This document shows, one piece after another, positions 24,373-27,460 of a stretch of 64,000 nucleotides of DNA. Each line of letters starts with the position of its first letter. The stretch's first letter is position 1. The notes beneath the pieces were generated by a model. It saw nothing but the letters and a program-made list of their open reading frames with translations, was not told the origin of the DNA and searched no databases. The stretch comes from Bradyrhizobiaceae bacterium (GTDB lineage: Bacteria > Pseudomonadota > Alphaproteobacteria > Rhizobiales > Xanthobacteraceae), in NCBI GenBank assembly GCA_947481685.1, contig CANKHA010000002.1:62001-126000 (forward strand), given 5' to 3'. A program made the position numbers and the translations under genes.

Positions 24373-24376
<4 letters not shown>
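23915..24376 (+). CDS. queF: NADPH-dependent 7-cyano-7-deazaguanine reductase QueF
   Basis: Last soluble step to preQ1 in queuosine synthesis: reduces the nitrile of preQ0. 153 residues, the short single-domain form. Catalytic cysteine in [12 protein letters not shown], substrate motif [14 protein letters not shown], and FHEDCTVGI, ending in PYRGRG. It converges on thiE with a 3-base stop overlap. No other queuosine gene is nearby. Confidence 0.95.
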
Positions 24377-26002
<1,626 letters not shown>

Positions 26003-26023
26003 GGTCTACTCCGCCGCCATCCA

Positions 26024-26099
26024 CCAGTGTCGTGTTCAGAAATTCACTTCATGCCTGCCGCGAGTCCTTCAAGCGAATTTCTGAACCAAACGACACTGG
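26024..26099. repeat. 76-bp imperfect palindromic element, upstream member of a tandem pair
   Basis: Ends CCAGTGTCG and CGACACTGG are perfect inverted repeats; the arms continue imperfectly as GTTCAGAAATTC / GAATTTCTGAAC. The inner part (ATGCCTGCCGCGAG) resembles that of the next element read in reverse. It lies in the 111-nt thiO-thiS spacer, 14 nt from its partner. Confidence 0.75.
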
Positions 26100-26113
26100 A
26101 ACGTTACATTTTG

Positions 26114-26188
26114 CTAGTGTCCTTGGAATCCGAAGTTCGCTCCCGAGGGCGCCGCAAGATCATGCGAACTTCGGATTCGGGACACTAG
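26114..26188. repeat. 75-bp imperfect palindromic element that forms the end of thiO
   Basis: Ends CTAGTGTCC and GGACACTAG are perfect inverted repeats; inner arms AATCCGAAGTTCGC / GCGAACTTCGGATT are also perfect. Its terminal CTA provides, on the minus strand, the TAG stop of thiO and its body encodes the last 24 codons. Same size and similar termini as the neighbour at 26024-26099, so probably one family. Confidence 0.75.
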
Positions 26189-27328
26189 CCTCGCGAAGCG
26201 CTCGAAGCTGAAATTATTCATCCGCGGATCGGCCTTGCCGTCCATCACCAGCGTCGCGATGGCGTCCGCCGTGATCGGCGTCAGCAGGATGCCGTTGCGA
26301 TAATGGCCGGTGGCATAGACCAGACCCGGCATCGCGCTTTCCCCAATGATGGGAGCATCGTCGCGGCTGCCGGGACGGAAACCAACCCACATTTCATCGA
26401 TCGGCAATTCCTCGATCCCGGGCAGCGCACGCCAAGTCGCTTCCAGCAGCGCGAGCTGGCCACCCGCGGTTAGATTGGTATCGAAACCCTTTTCCTCAAC
26501 CGTGGCGCCGATCAGCAGTCGGCCATCCTTGCGCGGCACAAGATAGGCGCCGGGCGCCCAGACGACATGCGAGAGCAGTGGCGCTCGTGGGTCCATGCGC
26601 AAAGCCAGCATCTGGCCTTTTACCGGACGCACCGGTGGCAGCACAGACTTTGGCAAACCGTCGATGCTGCGCGACCAGGCGCCCGCGGCAAGAATGACGA
26701 CGTCGGCTGCAATCGTGTCTCCCGCGATGCCGACGCCGGTCACGCGACTGTCCGAGGTAACGATGCGTTCGACGGGTGTGTTCTCGCGCAGCGTGACACC
26801 AGCTTTGAGCACCGCCGCGCGCAGCGCTACTGCGACCGCGCGGTTGTCCACCTGGTGATCCTGCGGGCTGAAGATTGCGCCACTGATGGTCGGTGTCAGA
26901 TAGGGCTCGCGCTTGCGAACTTCCGCAGTCGTCAGCCATTCCAGCGGCAAGCCGAGCGACTTCTGGAAAGCCAGAACGTGCTTCAGGCGCGATTGATCGT
27001 CGCCCGTGAGCGCAAGCAGGAAAGTGCCTTCGGTGCGCAGATCGACCGGCAGGCCGCTCGCTGCTTCCAACTCCTCCGCGAACGCAGGCCAAAGCTGCTG
27101 GCTGGCGCGGTTGAGCGCCACCAGATTTTCCTCGCGCGGTTCGGCTTCCAGATGCGCCGCCAGCATGCCGGCGGCTGCGTGCGTTGCGCCTGATCCGGCG
27201 GTGCCTTTGTCGAAGACAATCACTTTCGCGCCGCGCTGCGCCAGCCGCCAAGCGGTAGCGAGACCGATTACGCCCGCGCCAATAATGGCAACGGTCGGCG
27301 ACGGCGAAAGCGATCCACGTTTACTCAT
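26114..27328 (-). CDS. thiO: Glycine oxidase ThiO with a repeat-derived C-terminal tail
   Basis: FAD-dependent oxidase that converts glycine to iminoglycine for thiazole synthesis; 404 residues. FAD fold VAIIGAGVIGLATAWRLAQRG at the N-terminus, ATHAAAGMLAAH, VRPVKGQMLAL and GHYRNGILLTPITADAIA at the end of the domain. After NNFSFERFAR the final 24 residues (starting LVSRIRSSHDLAAP) are translated entirely from the palindromic element at 26114-26188. The catalytic body appears intact. The SD (AGGAAGG) is 5 nt before the ATG and lies in the TPP riboswitch. Confidence 0.93.
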   Translation of the reverse strand: MSKRGSLSPSPTVAIIGAGVIGLATAWRLAQRGAKVIVFDKGTAGSGATHAAAGMLAAHLEAEPREENLVALNRASQQLWPAFAEELEAASGLPVDLRTEGTFLLALTGDDQSRLKHVLAFQKSLGLPLEWLTTAEVRKREPYLTPTISGAIFSPQDHQVDNRAVAVALRAAVLKAGVTLRENTPVERIVTSDSRVTGVGIAGDTIAADVVILAAGAWSRSIDGLPKSVLPPVRPVKGQMLALRMDPRAPLLSHVVWAPGAYLVPRKDGRLLIGATVEEKGFDTNLTAGGQLALLEATWRALPGIEELPIDEMWVGFRPGSRDDAPIIGESAMPGLVYATGHYRNGILLTPITADAIATLVMDGKADPRMNNFSFERFARLVSRIRSSHDLAAPSGANFGFQGH

Positions 27329-27410
27329 CGGCGCCTTCCTACGCTGGCATGACCCAGACAGGTTCGATGGGTTTGATCTCAGCCGCGAAGGTTCGCGGCA
27401 CCCCAGGCCG
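27329..27410 (-). promoter_or_regulatory. TPP riboswitch (THI element) of the thiOSGE operon
   Basis: Read on the minus strand the region shows GGGGTGCC, a GCCGCGAA/TTCGCGGC stem (P3), the CTGAGA core (27382-27377), ACCCATCGAACCTG, and GGGTCATGCCAGCGTAGGAA. These are the conserved parts of the thiamine diphosphate aptamer. The closing P1 pairs GCCT (27408-27405) with AGGC (27336-27333), which overlaps the thiO Shine-Dalgarno AGGAAGG (27340-27334). TPP binding should therefore block translation initiation directly, with no separate terminator. Confidence 0.93.
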
Positions 27411-27460
27411 TTGCAGACATATTTGACACTTTTCCCGCCCGAAACAAGCGCGTCGGAAGG

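Follow-up and report, generated by a model that had tools for sequence, protein, structure and literature searches.

Dispersed palindromic repeats of the REP/BIME/REPIN type have been reported in Bradyrhizobium and Rhodopseudomonas (PMC3733652, PMC8266576). The repeat described here, referred to as the doublet, resembles them in being scattered between genes and in pairing its palindromes in inverted orientation around a short linker, which is 11 to 14 nt long in 64 doublets from several genomes. However, REP hairpins measure 20 to 50 nt, compared with 75 to 76 nt for the hairpins of the doublet; each doublet hairpin carries CTAG at both feet, with GTAG or CGTC as the outer foot in none of 55 doublets; and the doublet is a composite of fixed makeup, with ends that can be placed exactly and CTAG as its target. 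No link to RAYTs was found, given that, of the two Y1 genes adjacent to doublets, the one scanned scores as IS200 and falls below the cut-off of the RAYT model.

Two palindromes of Bradyrhizobium, Br-REP1 and Br-REP2, have also been described, the second of which is said to be part of a larger element whose sequence is not given there (PMC5082802). Like the doublet, they are found at the 3' ends of genes, and probably in the same bacterial family. Identity of the doublet with either was rejected: the best local scores were 10 and 13, compared with 8 and 11 for shuffled doublets, and the window, the whole 64,000-nt stretch of DNA that was analyzed, contains no exact copy of them.

Like MITEs, the doublet is short, contains no open reading frame (ORF), has imperfect terminal inverted repeats with a tetranucleotide on both sides, and can be matched to empty sites; unlike MITEs, each unit comprises two complete hairpins, and no parental insertion sequence (IS) was met among the loci read. 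PATEs have hairpin ends and insert at a fixed tetranucleotide. The doublet shares both properties with elements of this kind, derived from IS200/IS605, and an IS200-type TnpA lies beside two doublets; nevertheless, the hairpins are unlike those of the neighboring IS, and most doublet carriers have no Y1 transposase. RIME1 of Rhizobium contains two palindromes. Both RIME1 and Bru-RS of Brucella, a reported hot spot for IS711 (PMC2266754), resemble the doublet as far as their descriptions go, being about 105 bp long, palindromic, intergenic, and alphaproteobacterial. A literature search returned no named description of the doublet in the open literature, most of the subscription literature being outside reach. 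The doublet is accordingly filed as a variant of the REP/BIME/MITE-type repeats for which no published name was found, the comparison with RIME1 and Bru-RS being by description only.

Structure of the composite element

Two palindromes occupy positions 26024-26099 (76 nt) and 26114-26188 (75 nt) of the window and are separated by 14 nt, in agreement with the sequence-only reading, which had remarked on their similar termini and equal size. Folded alone, each hairpin reaches -34.8 to -49.6 kcal/mol (z-scores of -6.5 to -8.2), both strands fold well, and none of 200 shuffles folded as well as either hairpin. In the window, the pattern AGTGTC-N{40,70}-GACACT has exactly two occurrences, where 0.04 would be expected. 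The z-scores and the count of the terminal motifs exclude a chance origin of the two palindromes.

The same reading regarded the palindromes as two adjacent elements; they are instead the halves of one composite, that is, inverted homologues that recur together at the same spacing. The parts of this composite, all on the minus strand, are as follows.

26024..26188, minus strand: complete composite (doublet) element, 165 bp; matches positions 1-167 of covariance model R1 with 138 bits
26114..26188, minus strand: hairpin 1, 75 nt; consists of an outer arm, a loop that contains TTGCGGC, and an inner arm interrupted by a short bulge
26100..26113, minus strand: AT-rich spacer CAAAATGTAACGTT; family consensus CAAGTCTATGATT
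26024..26099, minus strand: hairpin 2, 76 nt, inverted homologue of hairpin 1; CCAG foot at 26096-26099 and CTGG foot at 26024-26027

When hairpin 2 is reverse-complemented, it aligns with hairpin 1 in the same order of outer arm, loop, and inner arm with a bulge of 3 to 4 nt; the unit is therefore an inverted pair of homologous hairpins. The feature is thus a single composite repeat, in which two inverted homologous hairpins with CTAG feet surround an AT-rich spacer of 13 to 14 nt. In the window, hairpin 1 has CTAG at both feet (26185-26188 and 26114-26117), so that the element as a whole ends in a CTAG foot on one side and in a diverged CTGG foot on the other. Across the 64 doublets, the outer foot is exactly CTAG in 54 on the left and 49 on the right, and the feet vary in complementary pairs, CCAG with CTGG and CGAG with CTCG. 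Doublets are 164 to 170 bp long and have no ORF of their own; their outer arms form imperfect inverted repeats, the ends of which read TGCCCCGCTTCCGAAGTTCG and TGCCGCCGATTTGAAGTTCC after the CTAG.

In some enterobacterial BIMEs, an IHF site lies between the palindromes. The spacer consensus CAAGTCTATGATT likewise resembles an IHF site, as does the spacer itself in half of the copies: 32 of the 64 spacers match at least 8 of the 9 consensus positions, compared with 0.9% of shuffled spacers, although the copies are not independent. The spacer of the thiO copy is degenerate in this respect.

Copies across genomes and the CTAG target

The source genome is a 3.26-Mb draft in 107 contigs and the sole representative of its genus in the sample; judging by its named relatives, its GTDB family is most likely Xanthobacteraceae. 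BLAST and pattern searches identified further copies in it, including at least 13 doublets with both hairpins and a short spacer, the alignment of which defines 51 base pairs in the two hairpins. These copies fall into two sequence subfamilies accompanied by decayed forms. For example, in the decayed single hairpins at C7:103694 and C5:120400, the two outer arms are fused; a hybrid doublet at C1:31372-31537 combines two A-type hairpins from different subfamilies; and a degenerate copy is present on C38. A doublet on C46 (locus 1501-1690) extends as far as the opening bases of a tRNA-like gene (GGGCGCGTAGCTCAGC...).

To survey other genomes, covariance model R1 was used, and only 7 candidates per genome were scored, so that copy numbers are lower bounds. 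Doublets were detected in 228 of the 392 sampled genomes of the family, representing 34 of 47 genera, and the carriers probably include Bradyrhizobium and Rhodopseudomonas. The proposal of the sequence-only reading that the palindromes belong to a dispersed repeat is thus borne out by many further copies, both in the source genome and in related ones. Elsewhere in the class, 18 of 384 genomes, from many families, carry doublets with the same feet, a recognizable spacer, and the same size. Short forms of 129 to 133 bp, with loops of only a few bases, were also seen in other alphaproteobacterial families. BLAST against plasmid collections returned partial matches only, on Roseibium and Labrenzia plasmids, one of which, on a Roseibium plasmid, is a full doublet according to the model; several IMG/VR contigs also carry doublets, and the phage collections searched contained no doublet match.

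Empty sites were sought by joining the flanks of copies and searching the joined sequences in the 392 genomes. At one site, AAAGGCATT-CTAG-TCACC in three species corresponds to AAAGGCATT-CTAG-[element]-CTAG-TCACC in the species that carries the doublet. ATAG, TTAA, or CCAG stands at the insertion point of other empty sites, some of these non-CTAG cases aligning loosely. In agreement with this pattern, some doublets have another doublet inserted within their CTAG. These cases show insertion at a tetranucleotide resembling CTAG, of which an empty site has one copy and a filled site one on either side. The pattern fits a 4-bp duplication as well as it fits a target joined to the element's own end.

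The tetranucleotide CTAG is depleted about seven-fold in the window (31 occurrences, compared with 227 expected). The outer TAG serves as the stop codon of the neighboring gene in 25 of 62 doublets, compared with 9 of 48 other CTAGs (p=0.02), a modest enrichment obtained with a crude ORF caller that was applied to doublets and other CTAGs alike. With CTAG strongly depleted and a good part of what remains being C-TAG stops, many copies coincide precisely with a stop codon, so that the protein encoded upstream is unaltered, as these counts show statistically.

Taken together, the feature is very probably a nonautonomous mobile repeat of about 165 bp that spreads into CTAG, the thiO copy having landed out of register with the stop and hence having yielded a protein tail. 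If this is right, a common repeat of genomes of the Xanthobacteraceae type has gained precise boundaries, a covariance model, and a defined target site; it could then serve in annotation, in following insertions from strain to strain, and in studies of the spread of palindromic repeats. The CTAG rule would also help to explain repeats at the 3' ends of genes without invoking regulation.

The C-terminal tail of ThiO

The minus strand of positions 24373-27415 carries, in order, a TPP riboswitch, thiO, thiS, a thiG-like gene, and a thiE-like gene. The features around the insertion are listed below.

27319..27415, minus strand: TPP riboswitch in the operon leader upstream of thiO, from an Rfam scan
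26114..27328, minus strand: thiO, a vitamin B1 gene encoding glycine oxidase; hairpin 1 contains its stop codon and the 24 codons before it
26006..26023, minus strand: remnant of the old thiO end, TGG ATG GCG GCG GAG TAG (W M A A E stop), no longer coding
25784..26002, minus strand: thiS, sulfur carrier protein; starts 111 nt after the new thiO stop

The minus-strand frame of thiO crosses 26114-26188 as CTA GTG TCC ... GGA CAC TAG. The encoded protein reads ERF-AR, followed by 24 residues from hairpin 1 and the TAG of the inner foot; the frame passes through the hairpin, and translation ends at that foot. ThiO was compared at 92 loci of relatives, some of which are present in both collections. 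In most of these proteins, 7 or 8 residues follow a conserved Arg-Phe before the end, and 45 of the 92 finish in Ala-Ala-Glu; the start of thiS usually lies no more than about 20 bases beyond thiO, or the two genes overlap. The 24-residue tail is absent from all 92 loci. The comparison shows that the element inserted a few codons before the old stop, with the 24 new residues replacing the old end.

This frame reproduces the earlier suggestion that the second palindrome supplies thiO with its TAG and last 24 codons. The further suggestion, that a noncoding repeat has become a protein tail, is supported on two counts: none of the ThiO relatives that were read has the tail, and the old Ala-Ala-Glu-stop survives downstream of the element. 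The comparison that was drawn with Rickettsia holds for the outcome only, a repeat within an ORF. Rickettsia palindromic elements (RPEs) are likewise palindromic repeats inside protein-coding genes but, compared by description alone, differ from the doublet, whose tail is C-terminal and an uncommon outcome. Indeed, the protein tail is an exception, the usual insertions hitting CTAG and often keeping the gene's own TAG stop.

Excision of the element with both feet in silico yields ERF-ARWMAAE-stop, which has the commonest length among the relatives, whereas excision that leaves one CTAG places the old thiO end one base out of frame. Since one leftover CTAG breaks the frame, thiO requires either that the insertion added no extra tetranucleotide or that a 1-nt indel occurred afterwards. 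The 111 nt that now separate the thiO stop from the thiS start include hairpin 2, and the insertion may weaken translational coupling between the two genes; the GGAG in the remnant at 26006-26023 is likely the ribosome-binding site of thiS. The thiO case offers a direct view of how a mobile repeat turns into the tail of a protein; the former end of the gene can still be read beside it.

Candidate mobilizers and maintenance of the stems

The analysis linked no transposase to the doublets as their mobilizer, which would act in trans and would since have been lost from the source genome. One candidate is an IS200/IS605-type (HUH, Y1) transposase, for which the left CTAG would be the target and the right CTAG the end of the element, and which would bind the hairpins. 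A 153-aa IS200-type TnpA (NF033573, E value of 2e-43; PDB relatives include ISHp608) adjoins a doublet in two genera, at L263:1185-2010 and L264:1187-2010 (genomes G040 and G341); the flanks of the two loci are unrelated, and the foot that it abuts is the same in both. Nested doublet insertions are present in these two genomes as well. CTAG precedes the left end of this IS200-type element in all 4 copies, including two without doublets (L287 and L288), and its right end, TTAG or TTAC, abuts the CTAG foot of the doublet. The single CTAG at empty sites fits Y1-type insertion as well. However, a doublet is present at only 2 of the 37 Y1 loci scanned, and the end hairpins of the IS200-type element itself differ from those of the doublet, so that the doublet's CTAG may have been no more than an insertion site for this element. 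Furthermore, no Y1 transposase was matched in the source genome, in 140 of the 228 carrier genomes, or in 74 of the 103 carriers in which the number of scored copies reached its maximum. The TnpA beside doublets is the best lead, but an IS200-type mover is no more than a tentative candidate. Y1 transposases were found in 88 of the 228 carriers, compared with 31 of 164 noncarriers; as proof of the mover, this co-occurrence was rejected, given that 52 of those 88 belong to one large genus and that many heavily loaded genera have no Y1 transposase. A lone hairpin on an IMG/VR contig (59-199) has an inner CTAG foot followed by an apparent IS end (GAGCCTGTCCAGATAGGC...), which suggests that other ISs also target CTAG feet.

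Alternatively, the doublets could be MITEs of a DDE insertion sequence with TG...CA ends that duplicates 4 bp of CTAG (or TA within YTAR). The imperfect inverted-repeat ends are consistent with such an origin, as is the presence of CTAG at both ends of filled sites and once at empty ones, and IS711 provides a precedent for YTAR targeting (PMC2266754). Yet the outer feet are nearly always CTAG rather than the wider YTAR, the inner feet, which are also CTAG, are left unexplained, and no DDE element with doublet ends was met among the loci read. A DDE mover is possible to about the same degree as an IS200-type mover, the two being about equally likely. A broader scheme seems somewhat doubtful: doublets would be class-wide nonautonomous single-strand DNA elements that an IS200-type transposase specific for CTAG mobilizes in trans, and CTAG, a word that genes hardly contain except as C-TAG stops, would be a safe harbor, with proteins left unharmed and the double hairpin placed after the stop.

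In 55 doublets from many genera, 97.7% of stem cells are paired, and 44 of the 51 pairs have changed on both sides; the covariation score is 0.404, compared with 0.137 for shuffled alignments (above all 500 shuffles) and at most 0.095 for slid partners, in statistics across related copies that are not independent. The uncompensated stem changes comprise 39 mismatches and 15 wobbles, with no clear wobble excess. Changes on both sides without a wobble excess point to stems that are kept at the DNA level. The palindromes might stay perfect through a transposase that reads them or through palindrome-directed repair that copies one arm from the other; either transposase recognition or such arm-templated correction would fit perfect stems.

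The hairpins might instead be kept for a role in RNA, such as stabilization of 3' ends, termination, or regulation, with mobility being incidental. Many copies do lie directly after a stop codon, the thiO copy is inside an operon mRNA, and Br-REPs of Bradyrhizobium are transcribed in 3' UTRs (PMC5082802). Nevertheless, more mismatches than wobbles is unlike the expectation for selection on an RNA helix, and both strands fold well. No T-run follows either hairpin, a terminator and promoter scan gave no hits, and an Rfam scan of the whole window matched the TPP riboswitch only, with no family matching the hairpins. An RNA role is therefore improbable as the reason for their upkeep. Finally, two unrelated palindromes in chance proximity, together with a fortuitous lengthening of thiO, would account for the differing arm sequences of the two hairpins. 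This explanation has virtually no chance of being correct and is contradicted by inverted homologous pairs at a fixed spacing in hundreds of genomes.
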